Below, one piece after another: positions 13,159 to 29,187 of a stretch of DNA of 64,000 bases. Location: contig JADZEX010000086.1 of assembly GCA_020850355.1 (NCBI GenBank), positions 1 to 64,000 on the forward strand, given 5' to 3'. The notes under the pieces are model-generated. The model did no database searches. It was not told the origin of the DNA and saw only the letters and a program-made list of their open reading frames with translations. Origin of the DNA: Fimbriimonadaceae bacterium. GTDB taxonomy: Bacteria > Armatimonadota > UBA10988. Made by a program: the position numbers and the translations under genes. The stretch's first letter is position 1; every line of letters begins with the position of its first letter.

Positions 13159-13179
13159 GCTCGGATGGTGGAGTTGAGC

Positions 13180-13431
13180 ATGGCGAGTGTCAGCATCGAG
13201 CTACCGGTGGACGCCTGTTCGGCGCTGCGCCTCGATCCAGAGGCGTTCGTCCAGGAGATGCGCGTGGCCGCGGCGGTTAAGTGGTACGAGCGCCAGCAGG
13301 TCTCGCAAGCCAAGGCGGCCGAGATCGCCGGGCTCTCGCGCGCCGAGTTCCTGGATGCCCTCGGGCGGTATGGCGTGACGCCGTTCCAGTACACCGCCGC
13401 GGAGATCGTCGCTGAGGCAGGGCATGGCTGA
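13180..13431 (+). CDS. UPF0175 family antitoxin
   Basis: 83 residues. ATG 13180 is preferred over ATG 13165 because GGTGGAG sits 6 bases ahead of it. The sequence VSIELPVDACSALRLDPEAF, then EMRVAAAVKWYERQQVSQAKAAEIAGLSRAEFLDALGRYGV, is the typical UPF0175 form: a short strand, then a helix-turn-helix-like region for DNA binding. UPF0175 proteins are predicted antitoxins of PIN-domain toxins. The gene overlaps the DUF3368 PIN gene by 8 bases, the standard two-gene arrangement, and such pairs usually autoregulate. Confidence 0.88.
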   Translation: MASVSIELPVDACSALRLDPEAFVQEMRVAAAVKWYERQQVSQAKAAEIAGLSRAEFLDALGRYGVTPFQYTAAEIVAEAGHG

Positions 13432-13915
13432 GCACTGGGTGCTGGACGCCTCGCCACTGATCAGCCTCGGTCGAATCGGGTACGGGTCGTGGCTGCCGCA
13501 ACTGGCCGACGAGGTTGTCACGCCCGCGGCCGTCGCGGCCGAGGTCCTGGCGGGGCCGGCCGACGAAGCCCGGCAGCTCGTCGCCACCGGCAGCATCGCC
13601 GTGGTCCAGGCGCCGCCAGCGCCGCCTGCGCTGCTGGCCTGGGACCTCGGCGCTGGGGAGACGGCGGTGTTGGCCTACGCGCTCTCGCACCCGGGGGCGA
13701 CGGTGATCTTGGATGATGGCCCAGCCCGGCGGTGCGCCAGGGCACTGGGAGTCCCGCTCAAGGGAACCCTCGCCATCGTCATCCTGGCGAAGCAACAGGG
13801 GCTGACCGTCTCCGCCTCCGCGGTGCTGCACCAACTGCGGGCCAGGGGCTTCCGGCTGGATGACGCCACCGTCGCCCAGGCGCTGCGCGCCACGGTCAAC
13901 GAGCCCTGGCCGTAG
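13424..13915 (+). CDS. DUF3368 PIN-domain toxin
   Basis: 163 residues starting at ATG 13424 inside the antitoxin's 3' end. The PIN nuclease acidic residues are visible: Asp in WVLDASPLISLGRI (N-terminal), Glu in AAVAAEVLAG, and Asp/Glu in WDLGAGETAVLAYAL and VILDDGPARRCA. The ending KGTLAIVILAKQQG then LLHQLRARGFRL-like helices match DUF3368. PIN toxins are Mg-dependent RNases that cut tRNA or other RNA; here the partner UPF0175 protein would hold it inactive. Length is standard. No prophage or transposon genes surround the pair, so it is an orphan chromosomal toxin-antitoxin module between two carbohydrate-related giants. Confidence 0.87.
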   Translation: MAEHWVLDASPLISLGRIGYGSWLPQLADEVVTPAAVAAEVLAGPADEARQLVATGSIAVVQAPPAPPALLAWDLGAGETAVLAYALSHPGATVILDDGPARRCARALGVPLKGTLAIVILAKQQGLTVSASAVLHQLRARGFRLDDATVAQALRATVNEPWP

Positions 13916-18081: not shown

Positions 18082-19314
18082 GTGACTTCGTTTGAGTCCC
18101 TGGGCCTCCACGAGGCCCTGCTTCGCAACGTGGCCGCCGCCGGCTACGAAACCCCGACCCCGATCCAAGTGCAGGCCATCCCGCCGTTGCTTGAAGGCCG
18201 TGATCTGCTCGGCTGCGCGCAGACCGGCACCGGCAAGACGGCCGCCTTCTGCCTGCCCTTGCTGCAGCGCCTGCTGCACACCGCCAAGCCGAATCGCCGG
18301 GCCTGCGTCGGGCTGATCCTGACCCCGACCCGCGAACTCGCCGCCCAGATCGGCGACAACCTGGCGGTCTATAGCCGCGGCCTGCAGGTCAGCCACACCC
18401 TGGTCTACGGCGGCGTCGGCTATGCTCCGCAGATCAAGTCGCTGCAGCCCGGCTGCGACCTCGTCGTGGCGACGCCTGGGCGGCTGCTGGACCTGCTGCG
18501 GCAACGGATGATCCGCCTCGACCAGGTCGAGTTCCTGGTCCTCGACGAGGCCGACCGGATGCTCGACATGGGCTTCATCCACGACATCCGCGCGGTCCTC
18601 GCCGCGCTGCCGGAGCAGCGCCAGACGATGTTCTTCTCGGCCACCATGGCCGGCGGCGCCGAGCAACTGGCGCAGAGCATCTTGCACGACCCGGTGCAGG
18701 TGGCGGTCGCCCCGTCGGCGACGCCGATCGAGCTGGTCGAACAGCGCCTGATGTTCGTCGATCCCGCCAACAAGCGCGCCCTGCTGGGCGAACTGCTGCG
18801 CGACGAGAGCGTCGAGCGGGCGCTGGTCTTCACCCGCACCAAGCACGGCGCCAGCCGCCTCGCCAGGGCGATGATCCACGTCGGCAAGGGCGTCGAAGCG
18901 ATTCACGGCGGGATGACCCAGTCGGCCCGCACGCGCGCCCTGCAGGACTTCCGGGACGGCAAGATCCGCGTCCTGGTGGCGACCGACGTGGCCGGCCGCG
19001 GGCTCGATGTCGAGGGCATCTCACACGTCTACAACTACGACCTGCCGCAGGAGCCCGAGGCCTACGTCCACCGCATCGGCCGCACCGGCCGCGCCGGCGC
19101 GGGCGGGGTGGCGGTCAGCTTCTGCAGCTTCGAAGAGTTCGACGACCTGCGTGGCATCGAGCGCCTGATCCAGACGCAGATCACCGTCGTCGAGGAGCAG
19201 CCCTACCACGCCGACCACCTCCACGGCATGATGCGCCGCCCGGCCAACCGCCCCAGCATTCGGGGCAGCCAGCCGACCAACCGCTTCACGCGCCGGCGGG
19301 CCTTCGGGCGGTAG
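18082..19314 (+). CDS. DEAD-box ATP-dependent RNA helicase (RhlE-like)
   Basis: 410 residues from a GTG start. All helicase motifs are present in order: Q motif (FESLGLHEALLRNV...TPIQVQAIP), motif I AQTGTGKT (residues 46-53), Ia PTRELAAQ, GG, TPGR, motif II DEAD (155-158), III SAT, then the second RecA domain with RALVFTRTKHGA, VATDVAGRGLDVEG and HRIGRTGRAG. The short basic tail (PANRPSIRGSQPTNRFTRRRAFGR) is typical of RhlE/CsdA-class enzymes that remodel structured RNA in ribosome assembly and mRNA decay at low temperature. It has its own promoter and a strong terminator, so it is monocistronic. Confidence 0.95.
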   Translation: MTSFESLGLHEALLRNVAAAGYETPTPIQVQAIPPLLEGRDLLGCAQTGTGKTAAFCLPLLQRLLHTAKPNRRACVGLILTPTRELAAQIGDNLAVYSRGLQVSHTLVYGGVGYAPQIKSLQPGCDLVVATPGRLLDLLRQRMIRLDQVEFLVLDEADRMLDMGFIHDIRAVLAALPEQRQTMFFSATMAGGAEQLAQSILHDPVQVAVAPSATPIELVEQRLMFVDPANKRALLGELLRDESVERALVFTRTKHGASRLARAMIHVGKGVEAIHGGMTQSARTRALQDFRDGKIRVLVATDVAGRGLDVEGISHVYNYDLPQEPEAYVHRIGRTGRAGAGGVAVSFCSFEEFDDLRGIERLIQTQITVVEEQPYHADHLHGMMRRPANRPSIRGSQPTNRFTRRRAFGR

Positions 19315-19371: not shown

Positions 19372-19509
19372 TCATTTGCAGACTGACCGCACTCCTGCTG
19401 CTCGTGCCGCCCGGCGGCGGCGTGATGGCTCTCCCCAGGCATCGCGCAGGAAGGGCACGGCTCTTGGCCAATACCCACTGCGACCCGATCGGGCGCAGTG
19501 GAGGGTACC

Positions 19510-22500
19510 GTGCTGGCGTGCGCATTCCATGAGCACTTCTTCAGATGCTGGCCCGCGGTCAAGCAACGCGAGCTGCAACGCCGGACCGTCGGGTGCATCA
19601 TCGACCTGGCCTCTGGCAAGCCGCCGGCTGGAGCAGGGGTCAAGAAGCTACGGGCACCCGGCGATGTGTGGGAGGCGCGCGTCGACGACGCGCATCGCCT
19701 GCTGTTTGGACGTGCCGACGACGGGTTGCTGCTGCTGTGGGATGTCGTCCAGCATGACCGAGTGAATCGGGTCGCCAGGTTCCGCCGGCTGCACGATGGT
19801 GCGCCACAATCCGACCCCCTGGACCTCGTCCAGCCCGACAGCCAAGTCGGTGACCAGGCCTGGCCGACGGCCGCCGCCACGTCCGTGCTGGGCGCCTCAC
19901 TCAGCCAACGCCGTTGGCCGCGGCTGTACCGCTACCCCGGTCGAATGCACACCGGTGACCTGTTGCAGTGGTTGGACGGCAGACCGCGCGAGGCCGAACT
20001 GGTCCTCACCAGAGAGCAAGAGGTCGCCTCGGCGCTGCCGGCGCCGGTCGTCTTGCTCAACGCACCACCCGGGTGCGGCAAGACCAGCGTGCTGGTCCAT
20101 CGGCTCGCCCGCTGCCAACTCGCCGGAGGCACCAATCTTGTCTATGTGACTTGGCTCGCCGAGCTGCGGGACCATGCCCAAGGCCTGTGGGCCGACCTGG
20201 TCTCCGAAGCGGGACGAACCGGCCTCGAAACGCCTTCGTTTCTGACCTATCCGGAGCTGTGCCAGGAGCTCATCGTCCGGGCCGGGCTCGATCCGTTGCC
20301 GGGCAGCGTCATCACGGCTCGGGAGGTCCGCGCCTGGTTCGACGAGCGGTACCGCTCGTCCGCGGTGTCCTTCGATCTGGTGTGCGCGGAGATTCGCGGG
20401 GTGATCAAAGGCCTCCGTCGCGCAGGTGACCTCGACTCTCCGCTCCTGAGCGAAACAGACTACCTGGAGTTGCCTGACTGGCGGGTGATGGCCCGCCGGG
20501 CCGACCGGCAGCGGATCCACAGCATCGCCCGCCGCTACCAGGAGCGGCTGCGGAAGGAAGGGCAGTATGACGAGATGGATGCGGCGCGCCATGCGCTGCA
20601 GGCCCTTGACCGGCTCCGCGCCGGCGGGCATCCCCCGGTGGGCGGGCTCTTCTGTGACGAGGTGCAGGATCTGACCGAGGTCCAGCTTGAGCTGTTGCTG
20701 GCGCTTTGGCAGGGCCCTCCCGCCGAGCTGGTGTTGGCAGGCGACGAGCACCAGATGATCTACCCGTCGGCGTTCCGGTGGGATAGCCTCTATGAGCAGA
20801 TCCGCAGCATCGCACCACAGGTCGCGATCGAACGGCCCGCGCTAGAGATCAGTTTCCGCAACTCGCCGACCATCCTCCGGGCGGCAGACCGCGTCGTGCG
20901 CTCCGCAAAGCAGCAACTGCTGGCCGAGCTGCGCGTTCGCTCCGCCGCAGGCCCGCTGCAGGACCACCTGGACGGTCTGGCCGCCGGGACGGATGATGCG
21001 CTCCGAGTGGTCTGCCGGCCGGCGGCGGCCCTCCTGCAGGAGTTGGCCGCCGAACCGGGGCGGCCCGATTGGGTCGTGCTCGCGACCGCGGACGAAGCTC
21101 AACCGCTGCGCGAAGCTCTGGCCGCCAGCAGTACGCGGCCGAATTGGCTGGTTTCCACCACCGAACGTTGGAAAGGGCGCGAAGCGCTGGGCGTCGTGCT
21201 CTGGCGCCCGTGCGGCTCGAATGGCCGCCTCACCGACGTCCTGGGGCATTGGTCACGACCCGATTCGGTCGGTGCTCACTCGGCGCCAGGCGCTTTCGAG
21301 GTGCTCAACGAGCTCAACCGCTTGTACGTCCAGCTCACCCGCGCCCAGCGCCATGTTGTCGTGCTGGAAGACGGGCCTGGCGGGGCCCTGCTGGCGGCGC
21401 TCTGCCAGGCCGCGCCATTCGAACCGGGACAGCCGTGGCTACCGCCCGCCTTGGCCCCGCACCTGGCGACCGACGCCTGGTTGGCGTGGGCGCGACACCT
21501 GGAGGCTGACGGACTGTACGCCGAGGCGGGCGAAGCCAACTCGAACGCCGGTGACGACAACGGCTTCTGGCGCTGCGAAGGCGCTCAACAGCGCGATCTG
21601 GGGAACCTGGCAGAGGCTATCAGCCTGTTCGAGCGCGCGTCCGCCTGGCCGGAGGCCGCGGCCTGCTGTGAGGCGGCCCACCGGTGGGCGGACGCGGCCA
21701 GACTGTGGGAGGCGGCCGGCGAACGCCAGCACGCGGTCCGTTGTTCGGCGGCCGCAGCGCTGGAGTTCGAGGCCCGTGGCGACTGGGAGAACGCCGCCAC
21801 AGGGTGGGAAGCGGCCAATGAGCCGGAGCGAGCAACACGGTGTCGACAAGTCGCCGCGGCCCAGGCTGCCGAGACAGCCGAGGCTCGTGGCGACTGGGAA
21901 GAGGCGGCCAGACTGTGGGACGCTGCCGGTGAGCCTGCGCGAGCAGCCCGGTGTCATCAAGCGGCCGCGGCCCAGGCAGCCGAGGCCCGTGGCGACTGGG
22001 AAGAGGCGGCCAGACTGTGGGACGCGGCCGGTGAGCCTGCGCAGGAAGCCCGGTGCCGACAAGCCTCCGCGGCCCAAGCTGCCGAGACAGCCGAGGCCCG
22101 TGGCGACTGGGAAAAGGCAGCCAGGCGATGGGTAGAAGCCCGGCAGCCTGCGCGGGCAGCCCGGTGCCGACAAGCCTCCGCGGCCCAGGCAGCCGAGGCC
22201 CGTGGCGACTGGAAAGAGGCGGCCAGACTGTGGGACGCGGCCGGTGAGCCTGCCAAAGCCAACCGGTCTAGGGTAATCCTGGCAGCGCTGGCCGCCGAGA
22301 ACCTCGGACACTGGGAGGACGCCGCCAAGCTATGGCATCAGGCCGGCGAGCCGGCCAAAGCCAACCGGTCTAGGGCAATCCCGGCAGCGCTGGCCGCCGA
22401 AAACCTCGGACACTGGGAGGACGCCGCCAAGCTATGGCATCAGGCCGGCCGGCCGGCCAAAGCCATCCGGTGCCGGACAGCCGCCGCAGCGCTGGCCGCC

Positions 22501-23151
22501 GAGAACCTCGGTCACTGGGAAGGCGCCGCCAAGTGGTGGGCGCAGTCCGGCGAGACGCCGAAAGCCGAGCAATGCTGGGCGTTAGCCGCAGCGGCCACGG
22601 AGCAGCTCGGACACTGGGCGGACGCCGCCAGGCAGTGGGAGCAGGCCGGCGAGAGACCGAAAGCCATGCACTGCTGGGCGTTAGCCGCAGCGGCAACGGA
22701 GCTGCGCGGTGACTGGGAAGACGCCGCCAGGCATTGGGAGCAGGCCGGCGCGCTGGTGAAAGCCTTCAGGTGTCGGGCAAATGCCGCAGCGCTTGTGGCC
22801 GAGCACCTCGGTGACTGGGAAGACGCCGCCAGGCAGTGGGAGCAGGCCGGCGACCGTTCGCGCGCTGCACGTTGCTGGGCCTCCCTTGCTGTGGCGGCGG
22901 AGCAACTCGGTGACTGGGCGGACGCCGCCAGGCGGTGGGAGCGAGCGGGCGAGCCGGCCAAAACCACCAGGTGCCGGGCAGCCGCCGGCGCCCAGGCGGC
23001 CGAGGACAGCGGTGATTGGGCTGCCGCCGGCCGGCGGTGGACCGACGCTCGCGAGCCAGAGAAGGCCAGGACGGCGTACAGGAAGGCCGGGCTGCCGAGG
23101 CAGCCGAGGCCCGTGGCGACTGGGAAGAGGCGGCCAGACTGTGGTGGCTAG
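19510..23151 (+). CDS. RelE-like / UvrD-family helicase / TPR-like tandem repeat fusion protein
   Basis: 1213 residues from GTG 19510 (GGAGG five bases upstream; an in-frame GTG at 19498 is also possible). Residues ~1-90 resemble the RelE/ParE-type domain found at the N-terminus of some UvrD helicases: VKKLRAP, WEARVDDAHRLLF, LLLWDVVQHDRVNRVARF. The helicase has Walker A GCGKT (188-192), DEVQD (383-387), GDEHQMIYPS (motif III), SFRNSPTILRAAD (IV), WKGREALGVVLW (V) and VQLTRAQRHVVVLED (VI), so superfamily-1 ATPase/helicase activity is likely intact. From ~698 to the end run about 13 tandem 33-34-residue helical repeats of the form ARGDWEEAARLWDAAGEPARA. DNA repair, defence or RNA-related roles are possible; no proven function. 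The repeats continue out of frame beyond the stop. Confidence 0.82.
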   Translation: MLACAFHEHFFRCWPAVKQRELQRRTVGCIIDLASGKPPAGAGVKKLRAPGDVWEARVDDAHRLLFGRADDGLLLLWDVVQHDRVNRVARFRRLHDGAPQSDPLDLVQPDSQVGDQAWPTAAATSVLGASLSQRRWPRLYRYPGRMHTGDLLQWLDGRPREAELVLTREQEVASALPAPVVLLNAPPGCGKTSVLVHRLARCQLAGGTNLVYVTWLAELRDHAQGLWADLVSEAGRTGLETPSFLTYPELCQELIVRAGLDPLPGSVITAREVRAWFDERYRSSAVSFDLVCAEIRGVIKGLRRAGDLDSPLLSETDYLELPDWRVMARRADRQRIHSIARRYQERLRKEGQYDEMDAARHALQALDRLRAGGHPPVGGLFCDEVQDLTEVQLELLLALWQGPPAELVLAGDEHQMIYPSAFRWDSLYEQIRSIAPQVAIERPALEISFRNSPTILRAADRVVRSAKQQLLAELRVRSAAGPLQDHLDGLAAGTDDALRVVCRPAAALLQELAAEPGRPDWVVLATADEAQPLREALAASSTRPNWLVSTTERWKGREALGVVLWRPCGSNGRLTDVLGHWSRPDSVGAHSAPGAFEVLNELNRLYVQLTRAQRHVVVLEDGPGGALLAALCQAAPFEPGQPWLPPALAPHLATDAWLAWARHLEADGLYAEAGEANSNAGDDNGFWRCEGAQQRDLGNLAEAISLFERASAWPEAAACCEAAHRWADAARLWEAAGERQHAVRCSAAAALEFEARGDWENAATGWEAANEPERATRCRQVAAAQAAETAEARGDWEEAARLWDAAGEPARAARCHQAAAAQAAEARGDWEEAARLWDAAGEPAQEARCRQASAAQAAETAEARGDWEKAARRWVEARQPARAARCRQASAAQAAEARGDWKEAARLWDAAGEPAKANRSRVILAALAAENLGHWEDAAKLWHQAGEPAKANRSRAIPAALAAENLGHWEDAAKLWHQAGRPAKAIRCRTAAAALAAENLGHWEGAAKWWAQSGETPKAEQCWALAAAATEQLGHWADAARQWEQAGERPKAMHCWALAAAATELRGDWEDAARHWEQAGALVKAFRCRANAAALVAEHLGDWEDAARQWEQAGDRSRAARCWASLAVAAEQLGDWADAARRWERAGEPAKTTRCRAAAGAQAAEDSGDWAAAGRRWTDAREPEKARTAYRKAGLPRQPRPVATGKRRPDCGG

Positions 23152-23390
23152 CCAAGGAGCCTGCGCGAGCAGCCCAGTGCCAACAGGCCGCCGCAGCCCA
23201 GGCAGCCGAGGCCCGTGGCGACTGGGAAGAGGCGGCCAGACTGTGGGACGCTGCAGGTGAGCCTGCGCGGGCAGCCCGGTGCCAACAAGCCTCCGCGGCT
23301 CAGGCCGCCGAGACAGCCGAGGCCCGTGGCAACTGGGAAGAGGCGGCCAGACTGTGGGGGGTAGCCAAGGAGCCTGCGCGAGCGCTCAAG
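21601..23390 (+). repeat. tandem ~99-108 bp coding repeats (TPR-like)
   Basis: About 16 units, each encoding a two-helix repeat (W..AA..W..AGEP..A..C...AA..A). Units between ~21760 and 22260 and units after ~23094 are nearly identical at DNA level: a 54-base stretch at 21971-22024 recurs exactly at 23197-23250. The intervening units (22260-23090) are more diverged (AENLGHWEDAAKLWHQAG, AEHLGDWEDAARQWEQAG). Near-identical units flanking diverged ones indicate recent recombination or slippage within the array. Confidence 0.85.
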
Positions 23391-26799: not shown

Positions 26800-29187
26800 G
26801 TGCGTTATCGCGAGATTGAGCTGGATGCGTTTCAGGTCGCCGCGATTGAGGCGATCGAGCGGCATGACACGGTGATCGTGGCGGCTCCGACCGGGGCCGG
26901 CAAGACCGTGATCGCCGAGTACGCCATCGAGCGGTACCTGGCGACTGGTCGCCGGATCATCTACACGGCGCCGGTCAAGGCGCTCAGCAACCAGAAGTTC
27001 CGGGACTTCTCGGCGGCCTGGGTCGACCAGATCGGCATCGTCACGGGCGATGTCAGCATCAACCCGACGGCGCCGGTGCTGATCATGACCACCGAGATCT
27101 TCCGCAACACGGTCTTCGACGACCCGGCGCGGCTGCACGACGTGGAGTACGTGATCCTCGACGAGATCCACTACATCAACGACATCCAGCGCGGCACGGT
27201 GTGGGAGGAGTCCCTGATCTTCGCGCCGCCGCACATCGGGTTCATCTGCCTCAGCGCGACGATCCCCAACCTCGACGAGTTTGCCGACTGGATCCGCGAG
27301 ATCCGCCCGCAGCTCAACACCGCGGTGGTTGTCGAGCAGCACCGCCCGGTGCCGTTGGAGCATCACCTGTGGGTTCCCGGCGCGGGCGAGGCGACCTTGA
27401 AGGACGTCCGCCGACTGAGCGATTCGGCCGCCAGCAAGGGCCGGCGGCTGCGCCCGCACGAGGCGAAGCGCGTGCTGGGGGCGGGCCAGCGCGATCCCTC
27501 GGGGACCGGCGACATCGTCGCCCACCTCGAACACCTCAACCGGCTGCCCTGCCTCTACTTCTGCTTCAGCCGCGCCGCCTGTGAGCAGAATGCGCGGCGC
27601 TATGCCGAACACGAGCTGCTCAGCGAGGCCGAGCAGGCGCGGATGCTGGAGCTGTTTGACACGCTCTCGCAGCAGTTCGGCCTGGCCGAGGACGCCGCCG
27701 CGGCGCGGTTGCGGCCGCTGGTCGGGCAGGGCACGGCGTTCCACCATGCCGGCATGTTGCCGATGCTCAAGGAGGTCGTCGAGCGGCTCTTTGCAACCGG
27801 GCTGCTGAAGCTGCTGTTCACCACCGAGACCTTCGCCGTCGGCGTCAACATGCCCGCCGCGACGGTGGTCTTCGAGAGTCTCGAGAAGTACGACGGGGTC
27901 GACACCCGCTACCTGCTGACCCGCGAGTACCAGCAGATGGCCGGCCGCGCCGGCCGCCGCGGGATCGACGAGGTGGGCTACATCTACGCCCGGATCGACC
28001 CGGCGCAGGCGGTGCCCGAGGAAATCGAGCGGATCGTCACCGGCGCCGTCGAACCGACCGAGAGCCAGTTCAACCTCAGCTACGCCAGCATCCTGAGCCT
28101 CTGGCAGCGCTATGGCGAAAACGTCTTCAGCGTCGTCGAGATGAGCTTCGCCAACTTCCAGAACAGCACCCGGCTGCGCGAGCTGGAGGCCGACCTGGCC
28201 GACCTGAAGGCCGAACCCCAGCCGGCGATCGACTGCCTCAAGAACGAGCCGAAGAGCATCCGCCGGTACCTCGCCTCGCAGGAAGAGCTGCGCCGCGCCA
28301 AGAACCGCGCCGACGGCGAGCGCCGCCGGGTGGAGCGCCGCTGCAGCGGACGCAAGCAGCAGCGGCAACTGGCCCACGAGCTGCGGCTAATCGAGGATCC
28401 GATCCAACGGCTCGAAGAGAAGGTCCGCGGCAGCCTCTGCCACACCTGCCAGCGCAAGAAGACCTGCAGCCAGCAGCAGCGGGCGATCAACACCCACTAC
28501 GAGCAGATTGACGATGGCGAGCGGCAGATACTGCGGATCCGGCACCACCACCGCGACCAGATCGCCAAGCGCCTGGCGGTGCTCCGCGAGTTCGGCTATC
28601 TCGACGAGCAGGGCCTGACGGCGAAGGGCGATATGGCGGCCTCGCTGTACGGTTTCGAGCTGCCGATCACCGAGCTGTTCTACGCCGGCTTCTTCGAGAA
28701 CATGAGCGAGCAGGAGATCGCCGCGCTGATGGTCGCGGTGGTCTTCGAGAGCAAGCGCACCACCTGGTACGCCGCGATCGACAACGCCGAGTTGAAGATG
28801 TACCTCCGCGAGGCGGCCCTGGTGATCCGCGAGATCGAACGCCGCGAAGTCGAACTCGGCATCGAGGGCGGCCTGGAGTCGCTCGACGAGAGCCTCACGA
28901 CGACCACCCTGGCATGGATGGACGGCGTGGCGCTGGACGAGCTGACCGCGGTCACCGACGCCAGTGGCGGCGATGTCGTGCGGACGCTGCGCCACGCGGT
29001 CGATCTGTTGCGGCAGTTCCGGCGGTCGCTCGACCAGCACCCGCTGCTGCGGGACAAGATCGACCTCTGCATCCGCCTGCTCCGCCGCGACGAGGTCGAT
29101 GCCGAGCGCCAGCTCCGGCTCGGCCACGCCATCGACCGCGCCGCCGACGTGGCCCGTACAGCGGCGCCGTTGGTCGAGCCGAGCTGA
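26800..29187 (+). CDS. Ski2/Mtr4-like DExH-box helicase (HelY type, DSHCT domain)
   Basis: 795 residues from GTG 26800 with GGGGGA upstream. Motif I APTGAGKT (29-36), Ia APVKALSNQKF, DEIH box (121-124), SATIPN, then FCFSRAACEQNARRYAE, HHAGMLP, TETFAVGVNMPA and the Ski2 motif VI QMAGRAGRRG (near 380). Residues ~440-560 form the helical insertion with LCHTCQRKKTC (Cys547, Cys550, Cys556), a possible zinc site; the C-terminal DSHCT domain ends the protein (LDESLTTTTLAWMDGVAL). Ski2-like enzymes unwind RNA 3'-5' and feed exonucleases; bacterial HelY proteins are known in actinobacteria and cyanobacteria. Monocistronic; convergent with the next operon. Confidence 0.93.
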   Translation: MRYREIELDAFQVAAIEAIERHDTVIVAAPTGAGKTVIAEYAIERYLATGRRIIYTAPVKALSNQKFRDFSAAWVDQIGIVTGDVSINPTAPVLIMTTEIFRNTVFDDPARLHDVEYVILDEIHYINDIQRGTVWEESLIFAPPHIGFICLSATIPNLDEFADWIREIRPQLNTAVVVEQHRPVPLEHHLWVPGAGEATLKDVRRLSDSAASKGRRLRPHEAKRVLGAGQRDPSGTGDIVAHLEHLNRLPCLYFCFSRAACEQNARRYAEHELLSEAEQARMLELFDTLSQQFGLAEDAAAARLRPLVGQGTAFHHAGMLPMLKEVVERLFATGLLKLLFTTETFAVGVNMPAATVVFESLEKYDGVDTRYLLTREYQQMAGRAGRRGIDEVGYIYARIDPAQAVPEEIERIVTGAVEPTESQFNLSYASILSLWQRYGENVFSVVEMSFANFQNSTRLRELEADLADLKAEPQPAIDCLKNEPKSIRRYLASQEELRRAKNRADGERRRVERRCSGRKQQRQLAHELRLIEDPIQRLEEKVRGSLCHTCQRKKTCSQQQRAINTHYEQIDDGERQILRIRHHHRDQIAKRLAVLREFGYLDEQGLTAKGDMAASLYGFELPITELFYAGFFENMSEQEIAALMVAVVFESKRTTWYAAIDNAELKMYLREAALVIREIERREVELGIEGGLESLDESLTTTTLAWMDGVALDELTAVTDASGGDVVRTLRHAVDLLRQFRRSLDQHPLLRDKIDLCIRLLRRDEVDAERQLRLGHAIDRAADVARTAAPLVEPS

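Follow-up and report, generated by a model that had tools for sequence, protein, structure and literature searches.

We analysed a 64,000-nucleotide stretch of DNA from a Fimbriimonadaceae bacterium of the phylum Armatimonadota (contig JADZEX010000086.1; hereafter the window) and found in it a gene, starting at position 19510, that encodes a protein of three parts: an N-terminal head predicted to have the RelE fold, a UvrD-like helicase motor and a long tail of helical repeats. The same three domains recur in a family that is scattered over at least ten phyla and is apparently unnamed. The family keeps a set of invariant residues in the head, whereas its tail is highly variable. From this we infer an RNA-cutting head that is fed or gated by the motor, so that the protein may be an antitoxin-free, single-gene ribonuclease (RNase) machine for surveillance or defence. 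The mechanism as a whole is tentative, and we place it slightly short of an even chance; our confidence in the three-domain anatomy is higher.

The AlphaFold model of the head, built on an alignment of 31 heads, has the topology beta-alpha-alpha-beta-beta-beta-alpha over residues 1-96, with a predicted local distance difference test score (pLDDT) of 79.7. When it was compared with the PDB by Foldseek, YoeB, RelE, RelK, YafQ and ParE ranked first (E 1.3e-4), and the target template modelling scores were 0.72-0.76 among the top five matches. The first 28 matches were without exception toxins of the RelE superfamily or proteins carrying such an annotation (YoeB, RelE, YafQ, ParE, HigB), and this superfamily accounts for most of the best 50 matches listed, including Cami1 (PDB 8phj, 8phb) at rank 42. 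Sequence searches gave less. The isolated head had a borderline match to Pfam ParE_like (E=5e-4), its 20.4 bits lying below the curated cut-off of 24.4, and its sequence did not reach the Pfam cut-off for RelE/ParE families. The YoeB and HigB models each matched 9 of 33 family heads, weakly. An initial annotation, made from the sequence alone, had proposed a RelE-type head from motifs of that family. The model supports the fold well, and the motifs are real: they occur as ARVNRDIRLIF ... VDHHDD in relatives of the same phylum.

An argument for catalysis comes from the head alignments (33 heads, later 35). K45, E55, R57, R63, F66 and H82, numbered from the GTG start, are invariant in all 35 aligned heads, while the identity of the relatives' heads to the window head is just 17-33%. 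Some loci were found with a pattern including VWEARV, which overlaps part of the invariant motif. The invariance is not a search artefact, because most loci have other letters at this site (VFEARL, IYEARA, VFEGRV) and came to light by way of the helicase motif or the profile. Using hhalign, E55, R57 and R63 align to RelE K52, K54 and R61, and R57, R63 and H82 to YoeB R59, R65 and H83. The His lies within about two residues of RelE R81. K45 aligns to YoeB E46; the family has a Lys at this place and an invariant Glu at the place of RelE K52. The basic catalytic set of ribosome-dependent RelE (K52, R61, R81, Y87) is not found in the head, where E55, R63 and H82 occupy its positions or nearby ones. 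In a published superposition, the base E56 of RNase Sa2 falls on RelE K52, the acid H86 on R81 and R67/R71 on K54/R61, and RelE is without equivalents of the catalytic Glu and His (Neubauer and colleagues, PMC2807027). E55, R57 and R63 by alignment, and H82 approximately, would together make up the Glu-Arg-Arg-His set of RNase Sa2, which is absent from RelE itself. Since this set is invariant, the head is probably an active ribonuclease, and perhaps one that is independent of the ribosome. The initial annotation had left the choice between a toxin-like nuclease and a ribosome-binding head open; the set argues for the former.

The motor is, by its sequence, a UvrD/Rep helicase of superfamily 1 (SF1). 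The motifs GCGKT, DEVQD, KGREA and LTRAQR are all intact, in agreement with the complete helicase noted initially, and the fold matches PcrA, UvrD and Rep in Foldseek (E 1e-8 to 1e-10) at 12-15% identity in the structural alignments. Weaker matches include HelD and UPF1. The motor scores 24.9 bits against the UvrD equivalog, for which the NCBIfam cut-off is 1144, and the PcrA equivalog cut-off is likewise far from reached. The best PADLOC models are GajB and DRT-helicase (7e-10).

The tail is predicted to be an alpha-solenoid. The initial annotation had counted about 13 units of about 33 residues; the helical repeats stand, and the count is now 15 units of ~34 residues (32-37 aa in the regular ones). 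The units are predicted as pairs of helices of about 10 and 18 residues, arranged in tandem as in TPR-like solenoids. Pfam TPR_16 matches the tail below its cut-off (E=0.012), and an NCBIfam ANR_neg_reg match was judged spurious, as a match to repeat composition. Past the stop codon, and overlooked initially, three further repeat units lie in another frame. This copy is 87.8% identical to positions 21861-22154. In the frame of 22950 it runs open to 23432, and read in its own frame it has a ratio of nonsynonymous to synonymous substitution rates of about 0.38. The true or ancestral C-terminus may differ from the present one: either the tail was shortened by a recent frameshift or duplication, or the array is misassembled in the source genome, which is in 117 contigs. 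Given the three out-of-frame units, the tail looks unstable.

A profile scan gave 50 loci, of which more than 25 non-redundant ones carry head, motor and tail. Their hosts are Cyanobacteria (including plasmids), Acidobacteriota/Aminicenantes, Calditrichota, KSB1, Ignavibacteria, Bacteroidota, Bacillota, Fusobacteriota, Spirochaetota, a contig labelled Deltaproteobacteria and a Heimdallarchaeote metagenome-assembled genome (MAG). The tail had been noted initially as unlike a plain UvrD; the combination is not a one-off and recurs across phyla. Single-sequence searches found no near relatives, and a single-sequence scan of genome contigs and viral contigs gave no match. Head, motor and tail are found together in two cyanobacterial plasmid proteins, as in the window protein. 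Phage records contained no family member, and scanning viral contigs with the profile also gave none. In the window's own phylum the distribution is patchy, with a profile match in 17 of 291 genomes. Among the inspected matches, four of one genus have an intact head and motor. Two relatives (G183 and G185) have a stop within the matched stretch. Four other genomes of the window's class gave no match when searched by sequence. The GC content at third codon positions (GC3) of the window gene is 0.76-0.82, compared with 0.93 in its neighbours, and the protein has a long branch (3.32) in the tree. The low GC3, the long branch and the lack of a match in the class relatives searched suggest that the gene was acquired horizontally from outside. 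Its placement in the tree is unsafe, given the long branch and the absence of a starred group.

Family proteins range from 709 to 2801 aa, and tails vary greatly even within one genus of the window's phylum, where one protein has 2801 aa, others have 931-1344 aa and one has 709 aa. The last stops in frame soon after the motor. With the exception of the 709 aa protein, all examined members carry a tail, and it is shortest in Bacillota (~150 residues). The 2801 aa member (L093:3930-12335, G188:C1) carries a tail of ~2100 residues made of a near-perfect 13-residue repeat (DYANAARCYEQAK type). The member from the Heimdallarchaeota MAG (L026:5230-9945) has a long tail in a style like that of the window protein. 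In two Fusobacteriaceae members (L046:2399-5806, L053:7557-10964) the tails, judged by eye, consist of TPR-like and ankyrin-like repeats. Eukaryotic TRANK1 combines a helicase with TPR and ankyrin repeats, a layout that we considered as a distant parallel to these tails; we found no literature linking TRANK1 to the RelE-UvrD family. The searches also turned up a set of Shigella plasmid helicase matches.

The fusion of a RelE-like domain to a helicase is already known; the present family differs in standing as a single gene, in its solenoid tail and in its invariant set of catalytic-type residues. We found no description of the three-part family in the open-access literature. A close likeness is ArmD of ARMADA Type II, a GajB-like UvrD with an N-terminal RelE-like domain; deletion of ArmD or mutation of its Walker A motif abolishes ARMADA defence (PMC12458937). 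Both proteins place the RelE-like domain before a UvrD-type helicase, but ArmD works with ArmA, ArmB and ArmC and no solenoid tail is mentioned for it, whereas the window protein is encoded by a single gene without ARMADA neighbours. CnuH of Type II/III-A CoCoNuT systems has a RelE/Colicin-D-like RTL domain before an SF1 helicase (PMC11090510). It differs in its UPF1-like motor, its SmpB-like OB domain and its encoding together with a McrB-type GTPase, and no sequence conservation can be detected between its RTL domain and known toxins. Cami1, a structural match of the head, also has its RelE fold inside a larger protein. It is a RelE domain fused to a CARF sensor that acts without antitoxin and depends on the ribosome; it has neither helicase nor solenoid. 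RelE toxins are otherwise known as small, unattached proteins that antitoxins keep in check. The family shares with YoeB, RelE and YafQ the fold, a conserved Arg (R65 in YoeB, R61 in RelE) and a terminal His (H83 in YoeB), yet these are free toxins with antitoxins, and RelE is without the Glu and the His. RNases of the Sa/T1 type, likened here through the published superposition (PMC2807027), have the Glu base, two Arg and the His acid at superposable positions but are secreted, single-domain enzymes. The family shares with UvrD, PcrA and Rep the motor fold and motifs, to which it adds a head and a tail.

We surveyed the surroundings of 25 homologues with Pfam and PADLOC (113 neighbour proteins). 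These neighbourhoods consist of housekeeping genes and are not defence islands, and no defence gene or antitoxin recurs in them. An antitoxin gene adjacent to the family gene, as in type II toxin-antitoxin systems, was not seen in the window, and at the 25 loci none was obvious and none recurred; the initial statement that no partner antitoxin adjoins the gene holds. The ARMADA Type II operon, with its BrxHII-like and YprA-like helicases and PglX-like methylase, was also absent among the scanned neighbours of the window gene and the 25 loci, and the scanned window neighbours included no GajA-type PADLOC match, i.e. no partner as in Gabija. The defence role proposed initially is plausible by analogy with ArmD, without being reflected in the neighbourhoods. 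In one related genus the gene lies between conserved neighbours that include a beta-CASP/RMMBL RNase. A conserved link to the RNA helicases flanking the window gene (RhlE and DSHCT) was considered and dropped, as it is not kept in class relatives. In three Aminicenantes/Acidobacteriota MAGs a related gene of ~210 aa overlaps the start of the family gene (L031:7273-7911, L049:7267-7911, L051:2141-2767) and is a possible partner. In Euhalothece (L014:8891-10783) and Paraliobacillus (L036:5676-7832) a protein that by eye combines a NERD-like nuclease with UvrD adjoins the family gene.

In the mechanism that we favour, the head would be an endoribonuclease of the RelE fold whose Glu-Arg-Arg-His active site is of the RNase Sa/T1 type, and it would be coupled to a UvrD-like SF1 motor. 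The long, rapidly evolving alpha-solenoid tail would dock the protein on a partner, such as the ribosome, RNA polymerase or another complex. The motor would track along single-stranded nucleic acid and either deliver RNA to the head or relieve its inhibition, the head being kept off by its own protein, with no antitoxin, as in Cami1. The likely role would be RNA surveillance or cleavage directed against invaders, and the plasmid-borne members and patchy distribution support this. Several observations weigh on the other side. The comparison with ArmD rests on its published description. The correspondence of H82 to RelE R81 is approximate, a global alignment placing H82 on R83 (the match to YoeB H83 is exact), and the profile similarity of the head to YoeB is weak (pairwise E 5e-4; score 24.1 compared with 22.4 for the best of 60 column shuffles). 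The active site of RelE is basic and its K52A/K54A mutants are active (PMC2807027), so that position alone is no proof of catalysis. Finally, no recurring defence gene or antitoxin was found in the 25 homologue neighbourhoods.

An alternative is a housekeeping function in RNA surveillance or in the quality control of transcription or translation, with the motor removing stalled RNA or complexes, the head trimming RNA and the tail binding the machinery. The housekeeping surroundings of the homologues, the RhlE-like DEAD-box and DSHCT (Ski2-like) helicases near the window gene, the adjoining beta-CASP/RMMBL RNase in the related genus and the weaker motor matches to HelD and UPF1 are in favour of it. 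However, few genomes carry the gene, which is therefore not a core function, and the RhlE and DSHCT genes are not kept alongside it in relatives; we regard this alternative as rather unlikely. We also think it unlikely that the protein is a stand-alone anti-phage system, an ArmD/GajB-like helicase in which detection of invading nucleic acid by the motor or the tail sets the RelE head to cut RNA, leading to growth arrest or direct interference. ArmD is essential in ARMADA II (PMC12458937), GajB and DRT-helicase are the best PADLOC matches, some members are plasmid-borne, and the patchy spread and low GC3 suggest transfer. Yet the neighbours are housekeeping genes among which YprA helicase or methylase partners do not recur, phage and viral contig searches gave no member, and the gene has a conserved chromosomal place in one genus. 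If the protein were instead a helicase of DNA repair or replication, the head would bind without catalysing anything and the tail would serve as a scaffold. The motor fold is closest to the DNA helicases PcrA, UvrD and Rep, and the best Pfam name for the window head is ParE_like, ParE toxins being proteins that share the RelE fold but are not RNases. We consider this quite unlikely, as a strictly invariant Glu-Arg-Arg-His set over ~10 phyla at 17-33% identity is hard to explain without catalysis. It is very unlikely that we are simply looking at an acquired gene in decay. The three repeat units out of frame past the stop, the long branch, the low GC3 and the stops in G183 and G185 would fit, but no stop interrupts the 1213 codons, all head and motor motifs are intact, the break hits the last units only, and MAG assemblies readily go wrong in repeat arrays.

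Returning to the antitoxin-free RNase machine, a broader proposal, which we find doubtful, is that the family represents one-gene RNases across phyla, with an RNase Sa-type site that cuts RNA without the ribosome, a head that stays inactive although no antitoxin restrains it, and a tail acting as a fast-evolving recognition arm that grows and shrinks by tandem duplication. If the reading is true, it would connect toxin RNases with RNase T1-type chemistry and with surveillance or defence by helicases. The tail is also a clear example of how, among close relatives, a repeat scaffold can lengthen through tandem duplication.

Table 1. Features of the RelE-UvrD gene and its surroundings, in window coordinates.
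Feature	Position	Strand	Basis
Likely ribosome-binding site, GGAGG	19500..19504	+	Predicted, read from sequence
Whole coding sequence	19510..23151	+	1213 aa as read; open reading frame scan, coding potential by GC3
RelE/YoeB-fold head, residues 1-96	19510..19797	+	AlphaFold (AF2), Foldseek, head alignments, hhalign to YoeB/RelE
Linker, residues 97-147	19798..19950	+	Low confidence, pLDDT mostly <50
UvrD/Rep-type SF1 helicase, residues ~148-632	19951..21405	+	Pfam UvrD-helicase 1.9e-12; Foldseek PcrA/UvrD/Rep
Walker A APPGCGKT, residues 185-192	20062..20085	+	G188, G190, K191, T192 invariant in family alignment
Motif II / Walker B DEVQD, residues 383-387	20656..20670	+	Invariant in family alignment
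Predicted alpha-solenoid tail, residues ~654-1193	21469..23088	+	Regular 32-37 aa units from residue 697
Out-of-frame copy of three repeat units	23087..23380	+	Past frame break at ~23088

The open frame spans 19498-23151 on the forward strand (1217 codons). Within it, the GTG at 19510 is the better start because GGAGG lies 5 bases before it; this start and the gene position are as given initially. An RhlE-like DEAD-box helicase gene (18082-19314) ends 195 bases upstream. Downstream are two minus-strand genes without Pfam matches and, at 26800-29187, the DSHCT helicase gene. No small antitoxin-like gene adjoins the RelE-UvrD gene in the window. The only pair resembling a toxin-antitoxin system is of another type and lies ~5.6 kb upstream, unrelated to our gene: overlapping UPF0175 (13165-13431) and DUF3368 (13424-13915) genes on the forward strand, a PADLOC candidate (PDC-S70) that resembles a type II system with a PIN-type toxin. 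The same genome encodes a second UvrD-like protein (L098:9114-13415, G000:C38), very divergent and with long N- and C-terminal regions. We set it aside as a divergent paralogue whose N-terminus has no clear Glu-Arg-Arg-His set. The gene downstream overlaps it and weakly matches neutral ceramidase.

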